This document shows positions 3,761-62,256 of a DNA stretch of 64,000 nucleotides, one piece after another (the stretch's first letter is position 1; each line of letters begins with the position of its first letter). Both the position numbers and the translations under genes were made by a program. The DNA is from Dactylosporangium siamense (GTDB taxonomy: Bacteria > Actinomycetota > Actinomycetes > Mycobacteriales > Micromonosporaceae): positions 1 to 64,000 of the forward strand of contig NZ_BONQ01000090.1 in assembly GCF_016862795.1 (NCBI RefSeq), read 5' to 3'. Below the pieces are notes generated by a model. That model made no database searches and was not told where the DNA came from. It saw only the letters and a program-made list of their open reading frames with translations.

Positions 3761-6372
<2,612 letters not shown>

Positions 6373-7368
6373 TCACCGTCCGCGACCACCCCGCAGCACG
6401 AGCCTGGTCGGCAGCAGCACCTGCGTGGTCGGCCCGGTCTCGCCGGCGATCCGGCCGAACAGCAGCTCCGCCGCGCGCCGGCCGAGCTCGACCGTGTCGT
6501 AGGTGACCAGCGGGACCGGCCGCGGCAGCAGGTCGACCAGCTCAAGGTCGTCGAAGCCGGCGACGCCGACCTCGTCGCGCCCCGCGACGGCGTGCAGCAC
6601 CCCGACGCAGATCCGGTTGTTGTCGGCGAAGATCGCGTCGGCGGCGGCCGGGCCGTCCAGCAGTGCCGTCGCCGCGGCGCGGGCCGCCTCGACGGTGTGG
6701 TTGTCGAGGCTGACCAGCACCGGGTCGTAGCCGAGGCCGGCGTCCTCGACCGCCCGCCGGTAGCCGGCGAGCCGGTCGGCGCCGGTGAACACGGCCGGGT
6801 CGCCGCCGATGTAGCCGATCCGGCGGCGCCCCTGCGCGGTCAGGTGCGCGACCGCCTCACGCGCGCCGCCGTAGTTGTCCAGCACCACCGAGTCGGCCGG
6901 CACGCCCTGCGGCACCCGGTCGATGAAGACCATCGGCGCCCAGCGGGCCAGCTCCGCGTGCAGGTCGACGTGGTCGTGCGCGGTCGGGGTGACCAGCAGC
7001 CCGTCGACCCGCCGGCGGACCAGGTCGCGCAGCAGGTCGCGCTCCTGCTCGAAGCGCTGCCCGGTGCTGCCGACGACCAGCATGTGCTGGTGCCGCCGGG
7101 CGGTCTCCTCGGCCCCGCGGGTGACCCCGGACCAGAACGGGTTAGCCGGGTCCTCGATGAGTAACGCGACCGTCTCGGTGGTCTGACCCGGGCGTAAGCC
7201 GCGGGCGAGCTCGTTGCGGTGGAAGCCGAGCTCGGTGATCGCGCGTTCGACGGCGTAGCGCGTCTCCGGGCGGATGTACCGCTCGTCGTTGACCACCCTC
7301 GAAACCGTCGCGGGGCTCACCCCGGCCAGCACTGCCACGTCACGCATGGTGGGTCGCCTCGACGTCAC
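6373..7368 (-). CDS. LacI family transcriptional regulator
   Basis: This 331-residue protein has an N-terminal LacI helix-turn-helix (MRDVAVLAGVSPATVSRVV, residues 8-26) with a hinge helix, then a periplasmic-binding-protein-like effector domain (ALLIEDPANPFW; FIDRVPQG; GYIGGDPAVFTGADR; VGVAGFDD). The GTG start at 7368 has AGGAGG four bases upstream. It is divergent from the sugar ABC transporter/GH38 operon and upstream of the GH59-GH76 genes, so it is placed to repress both. The effector is inferred to be a mannose- or galactose-containing sugar released by these enzymes. Confidence 0.93.
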   Translation of the reverse strand: MTSRRPTMRDVAVLAGVSPATVSRVVNDERYIRPETRYAVERAITELGFHRNELARGLRPGQTTETVALLIEDPANPFWSGVTRGAEETARRHQHMLVVGSTGQRFEQERDLLRDLVRRRVDGLLVTPTAHDHVDLHAELARWAPMVFIDRVPQGVPADSVVLDNYGGAREAVAHLTAQGRRRIGYIGGDPAVFTGADRLAGYRRAVEDAGLGYDPVLVSLDNHTVEAARAAATALLDGPAAADAIFADNNRICVGVLHAVAGRDEVGVAGFDDLELVDLLPRPVPLVTYDTVELGRRAAELLFGRIAGETGPTTQVLLPTRLVLRGGRGR

Positions 7369-7384
7369 CGGACCTCCTCAGGGA

Positions 7385-7413
7385 TTGACCGACCCAGATT
7401 ATCTGATTACGTT
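7385..7413 (+). promoter_or_regulatory. promoter of the sugar ABC transporter operon
   Basis: TTGACC (7385-7390) and TACGTT (7408-7413) are separated by 17 bases and match the vegetative actinobacterial consensus TTGACn/TAnnnT. The transporter start codon lies 60 bases downstream. Confidence 0.6.
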
Positions 7414-7427
7414 CTCTGATTACGTTC
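7402..7427. repeat. 13-bp tandem direct repeat over the -10 element
   Basis: TCTGATTACGTTC occurs twice back to back (7402-7414 and 7415-7427), duplicating the -10 hexamer TACGTT. It lies between divergent lacI and the ABC operon and may be a regulator binding site or a slippage product. Confidence 0.85.
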
Positions 7428-7473
7428 TCATACAGCTCCGTCACCGGTTCCGCCACGACCCTCGGGAGCAGCG

Positions 7474-8814
7474 ATGCGACGCATCGTCACGTTTACAGCC
7501 CTGTCCGTCCTGATCCTCCCCGCCGCCGCGGCGTGCGACTCCAGCACCGGGGACGGCGGCAAGACCGTCACCGTCGCCTACCAGAAGTTCGGTGCGTTCA
7601 CGCAGATGGACGACCAGATGAAGAAGGTCAAGTCCCAGTACGAGGCGGCCCACCCCGGCTCCACCGTGAAGCTGGTCCCGATCGAGGCCGCGGAGAACGA
7701 CTACTACACCAAGCTGTCGCTGATGAACCGGTCGGCGAACACCGCACCCGACGTCATGTACGAGGACACGTTCCTCGTCAACACCGACATCGCCGCGGGC
7801 TTCCTCGCCCCGATCGACGACCACCTCGCCAAGTGGCCGGACTGGAGCCAGTTCACCGACGCCTCCAAGACCGCCGCGAAGGCCCTGGACGGCAAGACCT
7901 ACGGCGTGCCGATGGGCACCGACACCCGCGCGCTCTGGTACAACAAGGACCTCTTCGCCCAGGCCGGCATCACCGTGCCGTGGGAGCCGAAGACCTGGGA
8001 CGACATCCTCGCCACGGCCCGCACCCTCAAGGCCAAGCTGCCCGGCGTCATCCCGCTCAACGTCTACTCGGGCAAGGCCGCCGGCGAGGCCGCCACGATG
8101 CAGGGCCTGGAGATGCTGCTGTACGGCACCCAGGACACCCTGTATGACGACGCGGCCAAGAAGTGGATCGGCTCCAGCCCCGGCATGCTCGACTCGCTCG
8201 GCTTCATCAAGACCATCTACGGCGAGGGCCTCGCCCCGACCCCGCAGGACGCGCTCGACCCCAACTTCGGCAGCCGGTTGAGCACCGAGCTGCTGCCCGG
8301 GGGCAAGCTGGCCATCGCGCTGGACGGCTCCTGGCAGAGCGGCACCTGGCTGCCCACCGGCTCCAAGCCGTGGCCACAGTGGAACACCGTGCTCGGCCTG
8401 GCCGCGATGCCGACCCAGAAGGGCCAGGCGCCGGGAAGGACCAGCATGTCCGGTGGCTGGGTGCTGTCGGTCGGGTCGAAGAGCAAGGACAAGCAGGCCG
8501 CGTTCGACTTCGTCAGCCTGGCGCTGAACAAGGACAACACCCTCGCCTACGACATCGCCGCGAGCCAGATCGCCGAACGCGCCGACGTCGCCGCCGACCC
8601 GGCCTACCTGGCGGCCAACCCGACCCTGAAGTTCTTCACCGACCTGGTGACCGTCACCCACTTCCGGCCCGCGTACGCGGACTACCCGCAGGTCTCCAAT
8701 GCGATCCAGGTCGCGATGGAGGCCGTCATGACCGGCCAGCAGAGCCCGCAGCAGGCCGTCACGGCGTTCGGCAACCAGCTCAAGCAGGTCGTCGGACCAG
8801 ACAAGGTCAAGTAG
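7474..8814 (+). CDS. sugar ABC transporter substrate-binding lipoprotein
   Basis: This 446-residue protein has a lipoprotein signal with a lipobox ending at C21 (PAAAAC), so it is anchored outside the membrane. The rest is a family-1 extracellular solute-binding protein: an N-terminal TVAYQKFG strand, VMYEDTFLVNTDIAAGFLAP, YGVPMGTDTRALWYNKDLF near residues 145-165, and ALDGSWQSGTWLP in the second lobe. GGGAG precedes the ATG by five bases. It leads an operon of binding protein, two permeases and GH38 alpha-mannosidase, which suggests an alpha-mannoside oligosaccharide as ligand. No ATPase gene is present; actinomycetes often share one MsiK-type ATPase among such importers. Confidence 0.93.
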   Translation: MRRIVTFTALSVLILPAAAACDSSTGDGGKTVTVAYQKFGAFTQMDDQMKKVKSQYEAAHPGSTVKLVPIEAAENDYYTKLSLMNRSANTAPDVMYEDTFLVNTDIAAGFLAPIDDHLAKWPDWSQFTDASKTAAKALDGKTYGVPMGTDTRALWYNKDLFAQAGITVPWEPKTWDDILATARTLKAKLPGVIPLNVYSGKAAGEAATMQGLEMLLYGTQDTLYDDAAKKWIGSSPGMLDSLGFIKTIYGEGLAPTPQDALDPNFGSRLSTELLPGGKLAIALDGSWQSGTWLPTGSKPWPQWNTVLGLAAMPTQKGQAPGRTSMSGGWVLSVGSKSKDKQAAFDFVSLALNKDNTLAYDIAASQIAERADVAADPAYLAANPTLKFFTDLVTVTHFRPAYADYPQVSNAIQVAMEAVMTGQQSPQQAVTAFGNQLKQVVGPDKVK

Positions 8815-8819
8815 CGCCG

Positions 8820-9668
8820 ATGTTGCGCCGGTTCACCCCACTGCTGCCCGCCGTGGCGCTGCTCCTGGTCTTCTTCGCGGGGCCGATGCTGTGGAGCGTC
8901 TACACCGCCTTCACCGACATGGCGTTGACCGGGTCCGTGAGCGTCGACTTCGTCGGGGCCGACAACTTCACCCGGATGGCGCAGGATCCGGCGTTCCTGC
9001 ACTCGCTGCTGCTCACCCTCGTGTTCGTCGTCGGCTCGGCGGTCATCGGGCAGAACACGCTCGGCCTGCTGATCGCGCTGCTCCTGCGCGGTCGCGGCCG
9101 GGCGTCCCGGACCGTCGTCACCGGCCTGATCATCGCCGCCTGGGCGGTGCCGGAGACCGTCGCCGGCTTCTGCTGGTATGCCTTCCTGTACCGCACGGGC
9201 ACGCTCAACCAGCTCCTGCAGCACTTCGGCGTCCAGCAGAACTGGCTCTACACCACGCCGATGCTGGCCGTCATCCTGGCCAACGTCTGGCGCGGCACCG
9301 CCTTCTCCATGCTCGTCTACTCCGCGGCGCTGTCCGACGTGCCGCCGGAGCTGGTGGAGGCCGCGCAGGTCGACGGCGCGTCGGCGTGGCAGCGGCTGCG
9401 GCACATCACGCTGCCGATGATCCGCCGCTCGATCGTGAGCAACCTGATGCTCATCACGCTGCAGACCCTGGCCGCGTTCGGGCTCATCTACGTGATGACC
9501 GGGGGCGGACCGGGCAACGCCAGCCAGACCACGCCGTTGTACATGTACCAGCAGTCGTTCAAGTTCTACCAACTCGGCTACGGCACCGCGATGGCCCTGG
9601 TGCTGCTGCTCATCGGGGGCCTGTTCTCGTTGATCTACCTGCGACTGATCAAGCTGGAGGACGGATGA
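8820..9668 (+). CDS. sugar ABC transporter permease (MalF type)
   Basis: This 282-residue membrane protein has about six transmembrane helices. The cytoplasmic EAA loop reads EAAQVDGASAWQRLRHITLP, the contact for the ATPase. The ATG lies five bases behind the stop of the binding-protein gene, and the gene ends in an ATGA overlap with the next permease. It is the shorter MalF/UgpA-type partner without a large periplasmic insert. Confidence 0.93.
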   Translation: MLRRFTPLLPAVALLLVFFAGPMLWSVYTAFTDMALTGSVSVDFVGADNFTRMAQDPAFLHSLLLTLVFVVGSAVIGQNTLGLLIALLLRGRGRASRTVVTGLIIAAWAVPETVAGFCWYAFLYRTGTLNQLLQHFGVQQNWLYTTPMLAVILANVWRGTAFSMLVYSAALSDVPPELVEAAQVDGASAWQRLRHITLPMIRRSIVSNLMLITLQTLAAFGLIYVMTGGGPGNASQTTPLYMYQQSFKFYQLGYGTAMALVLLLIGGLFSLIYLRLIKLEDG

Positions 9669-10477
9669 TCAGGCGGTTGCCGGTCTACCTGGCCCTCGCC
9701 GTGGTGGCGGTGGCGTTCCTGCTGCCGTTCGGGTGGCTGCTGATCGCCTCCGTGCAGCCCGGCGCGGCCCTGAACGCCGACATCACCTGGGAGGTCTCCG
9801 CCGCCAACTTCACCGACATCCTCGACGCCGACACCGTGTTCATCCCGATGTGGAACTCGTTCGTCATCTCCGGCGGCACCGCCCTGCTGACGGTCCTCGT
9901 CGCCGTATTCGCCGCGTACCCGCTGTCGCGGTACCGGACCAGCTTCGGCCGGTCGTTCCTCTTCGTCATCCTGTTCGCCACCGGCCTGCCGATCACCGCC
10001 GTCATGGTGCCGGTCTACGCCATGTACAGCCGGTTCAACCTCATCGACTCGGTGCCGGCGACGATCGCGTTCATGGCCGCGTCGTCACTGCCGTTCGCGG
10101 TGTGGATGATGAAGAACTTCATGGACAGCGTCCCGGTCAGCCTCGAGGAGGCGGCCTGGACCGACGGCGCCGGCTGGTTCCAGTCGCTGCGGCGCATCGT
10201 GCTGCCGCTGATGGTCCCGGGCCTCACCGTCGTGCTGATCTTCACGTTCGTCCTGCAGTGGGGCAACTTCTTCGTCCCGTTCATCCTGCTGCTCAGCCCC
10301 GAGAAGCAGCCGGCGTCGGTGACCATCTACACGTTCTTCTCGCAGTACGGGCAGGTGGCCTACGGCCAGCTCGCCGCGTTCTCGATCCTCTACACCGCGC
10401 CGGTGATCCTGCTGTACTCCGCACTGTCCAAAGTGCTCGGTGGGGCGTTCAGCCTGACCGGCGCGGTCAAAGGCTGA
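9665..10477 (+). CDS. sugar ABC transporter permease (MalG type)
   Basis: This 270-residue protein has six predicted helices and an EAA loop (LEEAAWTDGAGWFQSLRRIV). The N-terminal LPFGWLLIASV and an early extracellular segment (WEVSAANFTDIL) are typical of MalG/LacG-type subunits. It begins inside the stop of the first permease (ATGA, 9665-9668) and is followed 13 bases later by the GH38 gene. Confidence 0.93.
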   Translation: MIRRLPVYLALAVVAVAFLLPFGWLLIASVQPGAALNADITWEVSAANFTDILDADTVFIPMWNSFVISGGTALLTVLVAVFAAYPLSRYRTSFGRSFLFVILFATGLPITAVMVPVYAMYSRFNLIDSVPATIAFMAASSLPFAVWMMKNFMDSVPVSLEEAAWTDGAGWFQSLRRIVLPLMVPGLTVVLIFTFVLQWGNFFVPFILLLSPEKQPASVTIYTFFSQYGQVAYGQLAAFSILYTAPVILLYSALSKVLGGAFSLTGAVKG

Positions 10478-10490
10478 AAGGTCCTGCTGC

Positions 10491-13400
10491 ATGCGCATCC
10501 TCGCCGTCACCGGCACCGAACTGTTCGTCACCGGCCCGCTGCAGGTCGTCCGCGTCGAGGTCGCGGACTGGCCGGGAAGGATGGACATCACCGGCGACGG
10601 CGTCCGGGGCCACGCGGATGTCCACAGTGGACCTGTGGTGGAGGTCGGCGTCGAGTGTACGGCGCCGCCGGGCACCGAGGTGCCGATCCAGGTCACGACC
10701 GGCGACGGGCACAGCGCGGACGCGACCCTCGTCGTGGCCGAGCCGGGGTGGACGGTGTGGATGGTGTCGCACTTCCACTACGACCCGGTCTGGTGGAACA
10801 CCCAGGCGGCCTACACGGCGATGTGGGACCGTGCGGGCCGCCTGGGCACCGAGTTCCGGGCCGGGTTCCAGCACACCGGCTTCGACCTGGTCCGGCTGCA
10901 CCTGGAGACGGCCCGGCGGGACCCCGACTACAAGTTCGTACTCGCCGAGCTCGACTACCTCAAGCCCTACTGGGACAGCCACCCGGAGGACCGGCGGTAC
11001 CTGCGGACCCTGCTGGACGAGGGCCGGCTCGAACTCATGGGCGGCACCTACAACGAGCCGAGCACCAACCTCACCTCGGCCGAGTCGACGATCCGCAACC
11101 TGGTGCACGGCATCGGCTTCCAGCGCGACATCGTCGGCGGCGACCCCCGCACCGCCTGGCAGCTCGACGTCTTCGGGCACGACCCGCAGTTCCCCGGCCT
11201 GGTCGCCGACGCCGGGCTGGACTCCTCGTCGTGGGCCCGGGGACCGTTCCACCAGTGGGGGCCGATGCTGTGGACGCATGAGCCCCGCGACGGCTGGGGT
11301 GACCCGGCCACGATGCAGTTCAGCTCCGAGTTCGAATGGATCTCCCCGTCGGGGCGTGGGGTGCTGACGCACTACATGCCGGCGCACTACTCGGCCGGCT
11401 GGCACATCGACGCCCAGCCGACCCTGGCCGGCGCCGAGCAGCACGTGTATGAGCTGTTCCTGCTGCTGAAGCAGGTCGCCGCGACCCGCAACGTGCTGCT
11501 GCCCGTCGGCACCGACTACACGCCGCCGGCGAAGTGGGTGACGCGGATCCAGCGGGACTGGAACGCCAGGTACACCTCGCCGCGCTTCGTGTGCGGGCTG
11601 CCGAGCGAGTTCTTCGCCGCGGTCCGGTCCCAGCTGGACCGCGAGGGGCGAACGCCGAGCCCGCAGACCCGGGACATGAACCCGGTCTACACCGGCAAGG
11701 ACGTGTCGTTCATCGACACCAAGCAGGCGCAGCGGCACGTCGAGGCGCTGCTGGTGGACGCGGAGCTGTTCGCGACGGTGGCGGCCGCGCACGGCGCCGG
11801 GTTCCCGCACGAGGCGGTCGACAAGGCGTGGCGGCAGCTGGTCTACGGCGCGCACCACGACGCCATCACCGGCAGCGAGTCCGACCAGGTGTACCTGGAC
11901 CTCCTCGCGGGCTGGCGGGAGGCACACGACCTGGCCGCGTCGGTGCTCGACGGGGCGCTGCGCCGGCTCGGCCCGGAGGATGGGGGCGGGCCGGGCCGGC
12001 GGGTCGTCGTGTTCAACCCGTCGGCGTGGCCGCGCACCGACCTCGTGCGGGTCCGTGTCGAGTTCGGCGAGCCCGGCACCGCAGGTGTTTCGGTCGGCGA
12101 CCGGCCGACGCTGCTGGAACACGTCCGGCGGCATGCCGACGGCACCGTCGCCGCCGCCGACGTCGTGTTCCGCGCCGCCGACGTCCCGGCGCTGGGCTAC
12201 CGCGCCTGGCCGCTGACCGAAGCCGGCGCCGCCGCGGGCTGGAGCGAGGTCGGCGGGACGCCGGTCATCGAGAACGAGGTCTACCGGGTGACCGTCGACC
12301 CGGCCCGCGGCGGCTGCGTGTCCAGCCTCGTCGACCTGCGCACCGGCCGCGAGCTGTTGCAGCCCGGCCGGGTCGGCAACGAGCTGCTGGTCTACGACGA
12401 GTACCCGGCCCACCCGCGCTTCCACGAGGGCCCCTGGCACCTGCTGCCGAAGGGGCCGGCGACGCACGGCTCGGCCCGCGGGCCCGCCGGCAGCGTCCGG
12501 GTCGAGCACAGCCCGCTCGGCGAGCGGATCACCGTCACCGGCGGGACCGGCCCGCTGCGCCACACCCAGACCCTGACGCTCTGGCACGGCGGCGACCGGC
12601 TCGAGCTGACCACCAGGGTCGACGACTTCACCGGCGAGGACCACCTGGTCCGGCTGTGCTGGCCGGCCGCGGTCGCCGGTGGGCTGCCGGTCAGCGAGGT
12701 CGGCAACGCCGTCGTCGGCCGCGGGTTCGGCCTCATCGACGTGGACGCCGAGCAGGCGCCGTGGACCCTCGACAACCCGGCGCAGCACTGGTTCGCGGTC
12801 TCCAGCACCGCCCGCGTCGACGTGCACGACCTCGCCGGGACCCGGCGGCACACCCGCGCGTTCGGCATCGCCGAGATCATCGCCGAGGACGCCGACCGGG
12901 CGGGCGTCCGGGACCTCGCCGTCGCCCTCGTCCGTCGCGGCGTCACGGCCACCACCTCCCGGCCGGACGGTCCCCGCTACGGCCGGCTCGCCGTCGACTC
13001 GAACCTGCCCGACGTGCGGATCAGCGTCGGCCGGACCGCGTTCACGGCCGCTGTTCTCGCCGCCGCCGGCCCCGGCTACGCCGACGAGGTCGACCGGCAG
13101 CTCGCCGCGGACGGCCGGGCCCGCGTGCTGGTCCCGGCCGCGAAGGCACTGACGGGCGTGTGGCTGCCCAACGCCGACCTGACCGGCGTGCTGGACCTGC
13201 CCGTGCTCGTCGTCGTCGACGACGTCGAGGCGCTGTGCGCGGACCTGGCCACCGGGGTCGTGCCGGTGACCCAGCCGCTCACCGGCCTGCCCGACCCGGA
13301 CCTCGACGACCGGACCGTGGCGCTGGTCAACCGGGGCGTGCCGGGCTTCGCCGTCGACACGACCGGCGCCCTGCACCTGTCGCTGCTGCGCTCCTGCACC

Positions 13401-57108: not shown

Positions 57109-57636
57109 GTGGTCACGGTGCACGACGATCCGCGCACGGCCGACGACCGTCCACACCGGCACGTCAGCTTTGCGGCCTTCTACGCCTCATCGTTCCAGGC
57201 GGTCACCATCCAGCTCTTCGCCTACACCAACGATCTTGACGCCGCCCAGGACGTCGCGCAGGAGGCGTTCTACCGGGCGCTCGTGCGGTGGGAGAAGATC
57301 TCGGCGTACCAGGACCCGGTGACCTGGGTCCGGCAGGTCGCCTGGAACCTCGCCACCAGCCGCTGGCGCAAGGCCCGCACCGCGGCCCGGTTCGCCCGCC
57401 GACACCGTGAGGAACACGTGCCCGGGCCGGAACCGGACCGGGTCGCACTCGCCAGGGCGCTGGCCACCCTGCCGCGGCGGCAGCGCCGCATCCTGATCCT
57501 GTTCTATCTCGCCGACCTTTCGGTCCGCGACATCGCCGAGCAGGAAGGCATCCCCGAGGGCACCGTCAAGACCTGGCTGCATCGCGGCCGCCTCGCGCTC
57601 GCCGGACAACTCGCCGAGGAGCCGCAGGATGTCTGA
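57109..57636 (+). CDS. SigE family ECF RNA polymerase sigma factor
   Basis: This 175-residue protein has region 2 (FYASSFQAVTIQLFAYTNDL, AQDVAQEAFYRALVRWEKI) and region 4 (ATLPRRQRRILILFYLADLS, GIPEGTVKTWLHRGRLAL). GTG 57109 has AGAGGA about four bases upstream. It overlaps by eight bases the next gene for a single-pass membrane protein, the same arrangement as the SigE-type pair at 41 kb. Confidence 0.92.
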   Translation: MVTVHDDPRTADDRPHRHVSFAAFYASSFQAVTIQLFAYTNDLDAAQDVAQEAFYRALVRWEKISAYQDPVTWVRQVAWNLATSRWRKARTAARFARRHREEHVPGPEPDRVALARALATLPRRQRRILILFYLADLSVRDIAEQEGIPEGTVKTWLHRGRLALAGQLAEEPQDV

Positions 57637-58744
57637 CCTTCGCGACCCACTCGTCGACGCGTTCGCGGCGTTGCGCGGCGACGTCACCCCGCACGTCACC
57701 ACGCCCGGCCCGGCCGACCTGTACCGCCGGCTGGACACCCGCCACCGGCGCGTGAAGATCGCCACGACGGCGGCCGTCGCGCTCGCCGTGGCAGGCACGT
57801 TCGCCGTCCTGCGCGCGGGTCCGGGCGGGGACGACACCTCGGGCGTCGGCACGAACACGGGGAGCACCGAGACCTCCGTCGAGAAGCTCTCCGAATCGAC
57901 GCTGGACCTGCCGGCCTGGCGCGGCGAGGCGGCGAGCGCATGCGTGTCGGGCCCGACACGATTCAGCGGGGGTGCCCACCGCGGCCCGAACGGCACGGTC
58001 ATCATCCAGCAGGTGGCGGACGTCGACGTCGACCATGACGGCGCCAAGGAGGCCGTGATCCATCTCAACTGCACGATCCAGGATGCGGTCACGTTCCAGG
58101 TCGTGGCGGTCCGGCGGGACGCAACCGGCGCGCTGCGGACCGTCGGGCAGGTCGCCGCCCAGGACGACGACCTGCGAGCGGTGTGCAGCGTGCAGCCCGT
58201 GGTCAAGGGTGCGGTGAAGCTGCTGGTCTCCGACGACACGCGGCCGGACGCCTGCACGAGGCCGCCGTCGAATCAGACAGCCATGCAGTGGCGCACCTAC
58301 ACCTGGGACGGCCGGACCTTCCGGCAGACCGGCGGGCCGACCACGTTCCCGCAGCTCCCGACGGGCGTCGACCTGGCCGTGCAGGGCTGGCAACGCTCCG
58401 CCTTCACCGACCTGGGCGGTGGCATGCGTCGTGGCAACCTGACCGTCACGGTGCGCAACAACAGCGCGATCGAGGCACCCGGCTGGTGGCTGTACCTGCC
58501 GATCCCGCGAAACGCCACGGTCACCAGCCGATACGGCTGCGTCTCCCTGTCCCCCGGAGCCACGGCCGCCGCATTGTGCATCGGCCTGCCGCTCAAGGCC
58601 GGCGCCGAGTTCTCCCTGACCGTCACCATGGACATCCCGTCGAACGTCGACTGGCCGCACTGGGTGGTGCAGGTCTGGACTCCAGACGACTACACGGACC
58701 CGGACGTCGGCAACAACGACGCCGAATACGACGTCGGCCCGTGA
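57629..58744 (+). CDS. membrane-anchored protein paired with a SigE-type sigma factor
   Basis: This 371-residue protein has an N-terminal cytoplasmic part (PLVDAFAALRGDV, DLYRRLDTRHRRVK), one transmembrane helix (about 43-60) and a large outer domain containing DVDVDHDGAKEAVIHLNC, an FG-GAP/VCBS-like Asp-rich calcium loop. The C-terminal half has a beta-rich domain (LTVTVRNNSAIEAPGWW). It overlaps the sigma gene by eight bases and may act as its anti-sigma factor or sensor. No known anti-sigma motif is seen. Confidence 0.8.
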   Translation: MSDLRDPLVDAFAALRGDVTPHVTTPGPADLYRRLDTRHRRVKIATTAAVALAVAGTFAVLRAGPGGDDTSGVGTNTGSTETSVEKLSESTLDLPAWRGEAASACVSGPTRFSGGAHRGPNGTVIIQQVADVDVDHDGAKEAVIHLNCTIQDAVTFQVVAVRRDATGALRTVGQVAAQDDDLRAVCSVQPVVKGAVKLLVSDDTRPDACTRPPSNQTAMQWRTYTWDGRTFRQTGGPTTFPQLPTGVDLAVQGWQRSAFTDLGGGMRRGNLTVTVRNNSAIEAPGWWLYLPIPRNATVTSRYGCVSLSPGATAAALCIGLPLKAGAEFSLTVTMDIPSNVDWPHWVVQVWTPDDYTDPDVGNNDAEYDVGP

Positions 58745-58780: not shown

Positions 58781-61120
58781 TCAGGGGCCGGGTGACACTC
58801 CCGTGCCGACCGTCTTGTCGCCGGTGCCCTGCTTCGCGGGGAACGTGACAATCGGCGTCTTCAGCGCGATGACGGCGTCGCCGAGGAAATCGCGCCAGAT
58901 CATGCCGGGCAGCGTGCCGCCGATGATGGCTTTGCCGCTCTTGTCGACGATCTTCTGTTCTTGCGCCTTGTTGCCGACCCAGACCGCGACCGCCAGGCCG
59001 TTCGACTTGGTGGCGGGGTCGTAGGCGGTGTAGCCGACCATCCAGGCGTGGGCGTTGTCGGCGGAGCCCGGCGTCAGCTGCCAGGCCCCGGTCGCGCCGG
59101 CAACCGGGCGGCCGTCCTTGAGCTTCAGGCCGTAGTGCAGCGGCACGCCCTGCAGGACCGCGTTGAGGTCGTCGGCCATCGGTTCGGTGAAGCCCGGGAT
59201 GCGCTTCGGGTTGATCACCTCGCCGTAGGTCTTCTTGCCGTTCTCCCACACCTCCTTGAGGAAGTGGGTCTTCGCCGCGACGCCACGGGCGGCGAAGGTG
59301 GCGATGCCGCCGGCCTGGTCGAGGACGGTCACCGGGTACTGGCCGATGGCGACGTCGGTGTTGAAGAACTTCGGGAACACGTCGGAGCCCTTGTTCTGCG
59401 TCAGGTCGACCTTTCGCACGCCGCCACCTTGGACGGTGGCCCACATCTCGGTGATCCCGGCGGCGCGGGCCGTGTCGATCACCTTGGCCGGACCGACCTT
59501 CTCGGCGAGCCCGAAGAACGGGGTGTTGATCCCCAGCACGGTGGATTCATCCAAGGTGCACCACTTCGCGGAGCCCGAACGGCAAAACGGCGCGGCCGCG
59601 TTGTTCTCACCGGCGTTGCGGATCGGGTTCTGGGCGCCGCGGCCGCTGGCCGGGAACTCCTGCGGCGACTCGCCGTTCCAGTACGAGTCGGTCGAGTAGC
59701 CGGCCATCAGGCCCGTGGCGAGCGCGTAGGGCTGGAAGCTCGCGCCGGCCGGGTGACCGCCGCAGCACGAGTCCTCCCCGGCGCCCAGGACCGGGTCGCG
59801 GTAGGAGCCGGCGAAGTCGCCGCCGTTGCCGCTGTCACCGCCGTAGTAGGCCTTCACCGCTCCGGTGCCGGGCTCGACCGCGACGATGGCCGCCTGCAGG
59901 TTGCCGGGCTGGCCGTCCAGGTTCGACTCGGCGTTGCGGCTACCCTCGCGGACCGCGATCTGCTGCACGGTCTTGTCGATCGTGGTGACGATCTTCAGGC
60001 CGCCGTTGCGGATCCGGTCGAAGTGCTTCTTACCTTCCGGGCCCGTGCCCTCGTACAGCAGCGCTCCGGTCTTCGGGTCGGTCAGCGCCGCGACCTCGCC
60101 GAGCACGTGGTGGACGATGAGCCCTTCGGCCTTGTCGAGGCCGGCCTGCACGGTGATCGAGTTGGCGCGGGCCTCCGCGGCCGTCAGCACCTTCGCCGGG
60201 TACGCCAGCTTCTGGTCGGCGTCCTCCGACCGCACGAAGTTCAGCTTGATCACCGTGCGCTTGATGGCGTCGAAACGGTCCCGGGCCTGCTTGGCGTCCA
60301 CCGTCGGGTCGAACGGGCTGCCCTTGCCCTCGGTGCCCTCGGGGTTGTCGATCAGCCCGGCCAGGACGACGCCCTCGGCCATCGTCAGGTCCTTCGCCGG
60401 CTTGCCGAAGTACGCCAGTGACGCGGCCTGGATCCCGTACGCGCCCCGGCCGAAGTAGACGATGTTCAGGTACATCGTCATGATCTGATCCTTGGTGTAC
60501 GCCTCGTTGAGCTTCGTCGCGATGACCGCCTCGCGGGCCTTACGACCGAAGGACGCGCCCTCCAGTTCGGCCCACTGCCGCGCGTACTGCTGGCTGATCG
60601 TCGACGCGCCCCGGGTGTCGCCGCCGGTGACCTGGTTCCACAGCGCCCCGGCGGCCTCGGAGTAGTCGACGCCGCTGTTGGTGTAGAACGTCTCGTCCTG
60701 CGCGGCGACGACGACGTGCTGCACGTCCAGCGGGATCTGGTCGAAGGGCAGCACCGTGCGGTTCGTGTCGCCGATGCGCGCCATCGGGGTCGCCCCGTCG
60801 GCGTAGTAGATCGTCGTCGCCTGCTGCATGGCGACGTCCACGGGCAGCGCGACGCTGTCGTAGTAGTACGTGACGCCGACCAGGCCGAGGGCGGCGATCA
60901 GGACGAGGGCCGCGGCCGACCTGAGGAGGATCTTGCGGCGCCGCCGCTTGCGCGCCCCGACGGCCGTCGAGTGCGCGACGTCGCCGGCGGCCGCAGCGGT
61001 GACGGCATCGTCGGTCGCCGACAGGTCGGCGGGCGCTGGACCCGGCTCCTCGGTGGGCTCCCCCGACGCACTGTCAGTGATGTCCTTCGGCGGTGTGCGA
61101 TCCTGGTCGTCCTCGTCCAT
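58781..61120 (-). CDS. class A penicillin-binding protein with degenerate active sites
   Basis: This 779-residue protein has an acidic cytoplasmic tail, one transmembrane helix (about 64-85), a GT51 domain (about 95-290) and a transpeptidase domain (about 370-760). In GT51 the catalytic Glu of the EDxxF motif is Gln (Q141, AAQDETFY), while GASTISQQ and E197 in RKARE are kept. In the transpeptidase, SxxK reads A460-S-F-Q463, SxN reads G530-I-N and KTG reads A676-T-G. All three penicillin-binding motifs are thus lost. The overall fold is preserved over full length, so this is not simple decay. A structural or regulatory role in peptidoglycan synthesis is inferred. Confidence 0.9.
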   Translation of the reverse strand: MDEDDQDRTPPKDITDSASGEPTEEPGPAPADLSATDDAVTAAAAGDVAHSTAVGARKRRRRKILLRSAAALVLIAALGLVGVTYYYDSVALPVDVAMQQATTIYYADGATPMARIGDTNRTVLPFDQIPLDVQHVVVAAQDETFYTNSGVDYSEAAGALWNQVTGGDTRGASTISQQYARQWAELEGASFGRKAREAVIATKLNEAYTKDQIMTMYLNIVYFGRGAYGIQAASLAYFGKPAKDLTMAEGVVLAGLIDNPEGTEGKGSPFDPTVDAKQARDRFDAIKRTVIKLNFVRSEDADQKLAYPAKVLTAAEARANSITVQAGLDKAEGLIVHHVLGEVAALTDPKTGALLYEGTGPEGKKHFDRIRNGGLKIVTTIDKTVQQIAVREGSRNAESNLDGQPGNLQAAIVAVEPGTGAVKAYYGGDSGNGGDFAGSYRDPVLGAGEDSCCGGHPAGASFQPYALATGLMAGYSTDSYWNGESPQEFPASGRGAQNPIRNAGENNAAAPFCRSGSAKWCTLDESTVLGINTPFFGLAEKVGPAKVIDTARAAGITEMWATVQGGGVRKVDLTQNKGSDVFPKFFNTDVAIGQYPVTVLDQAGGIATFAARGVAAKTHFLKEVWENGKKTYGEVINPKRIPGFTEPMADDLNAVLQGVPLHYGLKLKDGRPVAGATGAWQLTPGSADNAHAWMVGYTAYDPATKSNGLAVAVWVGNKAQEQKIVDKSGKAIIGGTLPGMIWRDFLGDAVIALKTPIVTFPAKQGTGDKTVGTGVSPGP

Positions 61121-61200: not shown

Positions 61201-62256
61201 TTATACGGTCAGTAAGTAGTCGTCGGCCTCGGCGCTCCACCGCAGGTGCACCGCGCCGCTGGTGGCGGCCGCCTTGCAGAACTGCAGGAACGTTCGGTAA
61301 CCGAGTTTCTTCTCGCTGAAGTCGGGCCGGACCCGGCGCACCTGGGTCTTCAACCCGGACAGCGCCACCCCGGCGTCACCGGTGGTGACGTCATGCACGA
61401 CGGATCGCAGCAGCGCGAACGCCGCCTCCTGGTCGCCGTGCTCGGGCAGCGCCACCCCAGGGTCGCCCTTGGCGGGGCCGTCAGCCAGTTCGATCACGTT
61501 GCGGTCGGCGAGGTGGCGCAGCATCTCCCCGAAGGCGCGGAACCCGTAGTCCGACTCGCTGAACGTCGGGTCCTTGCGCAGCAGGGTCCGCTTCAGCGAC
61601 GACGCGGTGACCTCACCGCCGGAGCTGCCCTGCAGGCCGGCGACGGTCTGCGCGACGAGCACCGCGAGGGCGTCGCTGTCGCGGACCGGCTGCGGCGCCT
61701 CCGGCGCCGGCGGCGGCGACGCGAGCTGCGGCTCCGCGACGCGGGGCGCGCGGGGCGCGCGGGTGCGGGCGGCCGGCACCTCGACCCCTTCCAGGCGGTC
61801 GTAGTACAGGAACTCGTCGCACGCCGGTGGCAGCAGCGCCGACGTCGACTTCTCCACCCCGACGCCGATGACCCGCTTGTTGAGCCCGCGCAGCTTGTGC
61901 ACCAGCGGCGTGAAGTCACTGTCACCGGTGCACAGCACGAACGTCGAGATGTAGTCGCGCTCGAAGGCGAGCTCCATCGCGTCGACCGCCATCTTGATGT
62001 CGGCGGCGTTCTTCCGCGACGCGCCCATCCGCTGCGGCATCTCGATCAGCTCGACGTGGGACCGGGTCAGCATCCGGCGGTCCTCGTCGAAGTAGGACCA
62101 GTCGGCGTACGCCCGGCGCACCACCACCCTCCCCCGCTCAGCCAGGGCGTCGGCGATCGGCCGGAAGTCGAACGACATGCCGCCGAGATGGTCGCGTGCG
62201 CCCAGCGCGAGGTTCTCGTAGTCGAGGAACAGCGCGATACGGTCTTCCTGATCCAC
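61201..62256 (-). CDS. NYN domain (LabA/DUF88-like) protein with two LOTUS/OST-HTH domains
   Basis: This 351-residue protein has an N-terminal NYN PIN-like nuclease domain (about 5-155) with its acidic residues: ALFLDYENLAL (D12), AADIKMAVDAM and LCTGDSDFTPL. Two OST-HTH/LOTUS domains follow a Pro-rich linker: about 195-265 (LKRTLLRKDPTFSESDYGFRAF) and 280-350 (LKTQVRRVRPDFSEKKLGYRTF). NYN-LOTUS proteins bind and probably cut structured RNA. GTG 62256 is the start, without a clear ribosome site. It lies 80 bases upstream of the PBP gene in the same direction. Confidence 0.92.
   Translation of the reverse strand: MDQEDRIALFLDYENLALGARDHLGGMSFDFRPIADALAERGRVVVRRAYADWSYFDEDRRMLTRSHVELIEMPQRMGASRKNAADIKMAVDAMELAFERDYISTFVLCTGDSDFTPLVHKLRGLNKRVIGVGVEKSTSALLPPACDEFLYYDRLEGVEVPAARTRAPRAPRVAEPQLASPPPAPEAPQPVRDSDALAVLVAQTVAGLQGSSGGEVTASSLKRTLLRKDPTFSESDYGFRAFGEMLRHLADRNVIELADGPAKGDPGVALPEHGDQEAAFALLRSVVHDVTTGDAGVALSGLKTQVRRVRPDFSEKKLGYRTFLQFCKAAATSGAVHLRWSAEADDYLLTV

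Follow-up and report, generated by a model that had tools for sequence, protein, structure and literature searches.

A PonA1-type class A penicillin-binding protein with both enzymatic centres altered, retained under purifying selection in Dactylosporangium

The pseudo-PonA1 gene and its intact paralogues

The window, by which we mean the whole analysed stretch of 64,000 nucleotides from Dactylosporangium siamense (contig NZ_BONQ01000090.1, positions 1 to 64,000), carries on its reverse strand a gene for a class A PBP paralogue, called pseudo-PonA1 below (Table 1). Its reading frame starts with ATG and has no internal stops, and its GC content by codon position is 0.65/0.49/0.95. In the 779-residue product Pfam identified a Transgly domain (residues 112-284, E 1.1e-49) and, only weakly, a Transpeptidase domain (residues 522-727, E 7.6e-6), so that membrane anchor, GT51 domain and transpeptidase (TP) domain follow each other in the order of a class A PBP. 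A short acidic cytoplasmic tail precedes the anchor. It resembles the N-terminus of the nearest degenerate relative, the G006 copy (MDEDDQDRTPP versus VDDDNDRTSP), and judged by sequence the starts of the two proteins look homologous.

Table 1. Positions of the pseudo-PonA1 gene, of its encoded features and of the adjoining genes in the window
Feature	Position	Strand	Evidence
ECF-type sigma factor gene and overlapping membrane-protein gene	57109..58744	+	
Pseudo-PonA1 gene, class A PBP paralogue	58781..61120	-	779 aa ORF, Pfam, motif alignment
Transpeptidase domain, ~residues 441-735	58916..59800	-	Pfam, solved relatives, model, structure match
A676-T-G678 replacing KTG	59087..59095	-	alignment
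G530-I-N532 replacing SxN	59525..59533	-	alignment
A460-S-F-Q463 replacing SxxK	59732..59743	-	alignment
GT51 transglycosylase domain, residues 112-284	60269..60787	-	Pfam Transgly; PF00912 match in own genome
GT loop between motifs 1 and 2, residues 154-170; R158, N163, Q170 lost	60611..60661	-	alignment
Q141 codon CAG replacing GT51 catalytic Glu	60698..60700	-	alignment
Membrane anchor, ~residues 64-86 within helix 56-89	60863..60931	-	sequence RKRRRRKILLRSAAALVLIAALGLVGVTYY; helix in model
NYN domain and OST-HTH/LOTUS protein gene	61201..62256	-	

The solved relatives found by sequence are class A PBPs, and for the TP domain M. tuberculosis PonA1. An earlier note on this DNA had described frame and fold landmarks as intact over 779 residues, and the AlphaFold2 model (31 rows) agrees with it: pLDDT is 84 and pTM 0.79, with most of the TP domain above 90 and low confidence confined to residues 1-56 and 166-170. 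The top Foldseek matches of the model were the class A PBPs S. aureus PBP2 and E. coli PBP1b; PonA1 was matched as well (5cxw, TM-score 0.87 normalised by target).

The 12.7 Mb assembly of this strain encodes six GT51 proteins. Two intact paralogues are 71% (G000:C71) and 60% (C123) identical to the window protein. The surroundings of G000:C71, with an ino1-like gene, ponA1 and a downstream membrane-protein gene, are conserved throughout the genus, and we take them to be the ponA1 locus, naming the genes after their mycobacterial counterparts. Two copies in the related genome G006 carry deletions. In the ponA1-locus copy G006:C13 (5900-8000 of the examined locus) a deletion within the GT domain, at about residues 202-248, shifts the frame; it is either a real loss or an assembly error. 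In G006:C21 (5639-8182 of the examined locus), the orthologue of G000:C123, an in-frame deletion removes GT motif 1 and the TP motifs are intact; this gene could encode a transpeptidase-only class A PBP.

The window protein shares domain order, membrane anchor and predicted fold with PonA1/PBP1 of M. tuberculosis and relatives and with the intact G000:C71, and its TP domain superposes on that of PonA1 (5crf/5cxw). It differs from PonA1 in the absence of the GT51 Glu, of the Ser and Lys of SxxK, of the Ser of SxN and of the Lys of KTG, in its short N-terminal tail, in the lack of a Pro-rich C-terminal tail and in its location outside the conserved ponA1 neighbourhood, where G000:C71 lies instead. 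By descent the window gene is a full-length class A PBP of PonA1 type; judged by its catalytic features, it falls outside the definition of the enzyme.

Catalytic residues in the window protein and its clade

Ungapped alignment of the motifs with about 50 homologues proved the earlier note right in all the substitutions it had quoted (Q141, AxxQ, GxN and ATG). GT51 motif 1 reads AAQDETF, with Q141, against AAEDxxF in active copies, a change that takes away the catalytic acid/base and leaves much of the site. The SxxK region is PAGASFQPY (A460, Q463) against PPGSTFKVY, the SxN region LGINTPF (G530, with N532 retained) against xSLNxPF, and the KTG region AGATGAWQ (A676, A679) against AGKTGTWQ. 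GT51 motifs 2 and 3 are intact (GASTISQQ and RKARE; expected GxSTIxQQ and RKxxE).

Are these losses scattered, or do they fall on the catalytic sites? In 38 active relatives 104 alignment columns are near-invariant. The window protein retains 89% of them, and the lost residues are E141, R158, N163, Q170, Y285, M290, S460, K463, S530, K676 and T679. In the TP domain the losses took five of six catalytic residues, a set that we chose from general knowledge of the PBP family, and none of the other 33 near-invariant residues (Fisher p = 1e-5), and therefore the catalytic loss goes beyond chance. The earlier note had allowed that the true Ser, Lys and Glu might stand at other positions; in the alignment to the 38 active relatives no substitute for them was found elsewhere in the protein.

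A single clade inside the PonA1 copies of the genus unites six degenerate paralogues with 100/99 support, in one tree and again in a repeat with more rows. They occur one per genome in six of the seven Dactylosporangium genomes; the seventh, G005, which is the smallest, has no member. Taking the members in the order G000 (the window), G006, G001, G004, G003 and G002, the SxxK site reads ASFQ, ATFH, ASFN, STFS, ATFG and ATFG, the SxN site GIN, ALR, SLS, SLN, SLN and SLN, and the KTG site ATG, IAG, IAG, KTG, KTG and KTG. The SxxK lysine is thus missing from all six and the serine from five, KTG is retained in three, and no more than two members, the window protein and G006_C14, have Gln for the GT51 Glu. 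The other four keep this Glu, and partial GT activity is possible in them. Residues N163, Q170, Y285 and K463 of the active copies, together with 154-156 and 169, are lost in all six members, with an alignment gap across most of the GT loop in G002_C69b. The whole clade thus has in common an altered GT loop and the absence of the SxxK lysine. The earlier note had proposed a search for orthologues with the same substitutions. The relatives show the same kind of loss; the exact combination at four sites is not shared, and the replacement residues differ.

The Glu-to-Gln change was also sought with an exact degenerate pattern, which divergent motifs escape. Among PBP genes it matched the window gene and one same-genus homologue in 355 Micromonosporaceae genomes, and the window gene alone in 397 genomes across the phylum. 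The exact pattern overlooked a third Glu-to-Gln protein, G001:3.39M. Four further matches were due to chance, none being a PBP.

Could the window protein still be an enzyme, with residual or changed activity through non-canonical residues such as E143 of the GT domain? This residue is present in both Glu-to-Gln proteins of the clade, and the TP domain is strongly constrained (see below). Moreover, Ogawara (2016, PMC6273383) listed 13 of 100 Streptomyces class A PBPs without SxxK and regarded them as able to function. Like the window protein, these are actinomycete class A PBPs missing SxxK residues, and because they were listed in Streptomyces, the kind itself is not new. However, they mostly keep SxN and KTG, whereas the window protein is altered in every TP motif as well as in the GT51 Glu; the likeness is one of description and does not imply homology to the clade. 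The Ser and Lys of SxxK and the Lys of KTG are all missing here, the replacements vary among relatives (Q/H/N/S/G), as those of a newly conserved catalytic set would not, and H602Q is the only new residue fixed throughout the clade. E. coli PBP1B E233Q, the equivalent of Q141, is GTase-defective (PMC7943195). We therefore consider retained or altered activity quite unlikely, and complete catalytic inactivity of the window protein is a strong inference.

Codon evolution and independent degenerate copies

How strongly has the altered protein been constrained during its evolution? In an in-house GY94 F3x4 branch codon model (15 genes, 750 codons; synonymous change near saturation for deeper pairs), omega was 0.121 in the degenerate clade versus 0.075 in active copies (2 delta lnL 32.5) and 0.104 on the window branch alone, which answers the dN/dS question raised in the earlier note in favour of purifying selection. 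Forcing the clade omega to 1 cost 538 lnL units. From active to degenerate copies omega rose from 0.063 to 0.235 in the N-terminal/TM part, from 0.050 to 0.107 in the GT domain and from 0.053 to 0.117 in the linker; the TP domain did not differ (0.088 and 0.099), with relaxation undetected there. The evolution of the clade is relaxed yet clearly purifying.

These values bear on the simplest alternative, that the gene is a decaying duplicate, a young pseudogene whose frame has stayed open by chance. Its motifs are degenerate, its neighbourhood is unconserved, and the protein evolves faster than active copies (the window protein is 68.9% identical to G006_C14, whereas the intact copies of these two species are 95.0% identical to each other). 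But an omega of 0.10-0.12 with such a cost for neutrality, a TP domain as constrained as in active copies, retention in six of seven genomes and the concentration of losses on catalytic residues all speak against it, and on the window branch about 15 stops would be expected under neutrality where none is present. Decay is strongly disfavoured. The reading of the gene as a pseudo-PBP, put forward in the earlier note, is well supported by the related degenerate paralogues in six species, by their purifying codon evolution and by the fold, intact in prediction.

A second degenerate clade (100/99 support) unites two G033 proteins, one of G068 and G001:3.39M; G033 and G068 represent two genera other than Dactylosporangium. 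At G033:C266 two tandem degenerate PonA1 paralogues (4459-8742 of the examined locus), their open frames 3 bases apart, lie between an ino1-like gene and an active ponA1 (9570-12443). In G068 one degenerate copy is flanked by the ino1-like gene and by the small gene preceding ponA1. G001:3.39M (5403-7307 of the examined locus) has lost every site (AAQDPGF, GNAFV, GLK, LAAG) and has a very long branch. Pairwise omega in this clade is saturated and gives no estimate, so that only omega = 1 is disfavoured. A third related pair, G006:C39 and G001:5.97M (4702-7731 and 4069-7029 of their examined loci), has Ala for the SxxK serine (PAATFK, PAATFA). Because the second clade and the third pair are separately degenerate, PonA1-type copies of this family have lost catalytic residues at least twice and probably three times. 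The position of the second clade beside ponA1 supports a partnership with PonA1.

Proposed role and its meaning

Synteny gives little further guidance. The G002 and G003 clade members are syntenic orthologues, and apart from this pair no conserved neighbourhood of the clade was found across the genus, so synteny points to no partner. In the window the gene for the NYN and OST-HTH/LOTUS protein lies 80 bases upstream of the pseudo-PBP gene on the same strand, and it is absent beside the other clade members examined. On the other side the sigma factor gene and the membrane-protein gene overlapping it are oriented towards the pseudo-PBP gene. Such a pair also adjoins the G002 and G003 pseudo-PBPs, and in three other species the sigma genes are not adjacent. 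ECF-type sigma and membrane-protein gene pairs are common in actinomycete genomes, and as a link to function the pair is suggestive only.

This pair would fit a protein acting as a ligand-binding sensor or sink, whose dead domains hold, but do not turn over, lipid II, nascent glycan or a GT-directed antibiotic, making it a receptor or decoy that signals or protects PonA1. The fold and most near-invariant residues are retained, and the Glu-to-Gln change spares much of the GT site. On the other hand, all six members have a changed GT loop between motifs 1 and 2 and may no longer bind ligand there; the sigma genes are not adjacent in every species; and a protein with no acylatable Ser would not be a covalent beta-lactam sink, which makes a covalent form of the decoy considered in the earlier note improbable. 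As a whole we consider a sensor or sink rather unlikely.

We favour, with a probability of roughly 0.55, a folded membrane-anchored PonA1-type PBP that neither polymerises nor cross-links and has been retained because it serves the wall synthesis machinery as a non-catalytic partner. A place in polar wall-synthesis complexes is proposed because of two mycobacterial results. M. smegmatis still forms ectopic poles when it overproduces GT-minus TP-minus PonA1, an effect for which the authors suggest scaffolding or recruitment (PMC4483258), and mycobacterial PBP1 restrains RipA-RpfB by protein-protein interaction (PMC2912383). A scaffold or regulator role is plausible by this analogy and leans on mycobacterial genetics. 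The short N-terminal tail and the missing C-terminal tail could mean a loss of PonA1-specific interactions, which counts against the partner reading.

In this reading the history of pseudo-PonA1 began with duplication of a PonA1 copy inside Dactylosporangium, a filamentous bacterium of the soil. The duplicate would have shed both PonA1 tails, the long repeat tail in the cytoplasm and the Pro-rich one at the C-terminus, along with the SxxK lysine and residues of the GT loop, and the lineages would then have diverged, losing further catalytic residues while purifying selection held the remainder of the protein. Pseudo-PonA1 would join PonA1-like complexes at hyphal growth sites and there, without catalysing anything itself, fill or arrange the sites at which synthase partners, nascent strands or hydrolases bind, so that the place and amount of active PonA1 work would be tuned by it. 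Partner, localisation and regulatory effect are all inferred.

The principle proposed here, a catalytically dead wall-enzyme fold that regulates active wall enzymes, is known from the degenerate LytM proteins EnvC, NlpD and ActS of E. coli (PMC8360153). These amidase activators have the LytM/M23 hydrolase fold and are unrelated by descent to pseudo-PonA1. The engineered PonA1 of PMC4483258 is inactive by design and acts on growth when overproduced; it is a laboratory mutant and the window protein is natural. An inactive PBP1B is likewise a laboratory mutant that, as cited in PMC2912383, still affects growth when overproduced. The window protein is best read as the natural counterpart of the GT-minus TP-minus PonA1 mutant. 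In the literature searched we did not find described a loss of both centres with selection tested, nor its recurrent origin.

Given two or more independent clades, and the presence of members of one of them within the ponA1 locus, we tentatively suggest that hyphal Micromonosporaceae may have repeatedly evolved dedicated non-catalytic PonA1 subunits, and that active and dead class A PBPs may carry out polar wall synthesis there together in one complex, a picture which we consider somewhat less likely than not. Catalysis-independent functions of class A PBPs have so far been suspected from overproduced engineered dead mutants. A natural, selectively maintained PBP lacking both centres would give a clean test of them, as ordinary polymerisation or cross-linking would be an unlikely cause of any effect of its gene. 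Such a protein is also a caution that annotation as a PBP alone does not prove a synthase or a beta-lactam target.
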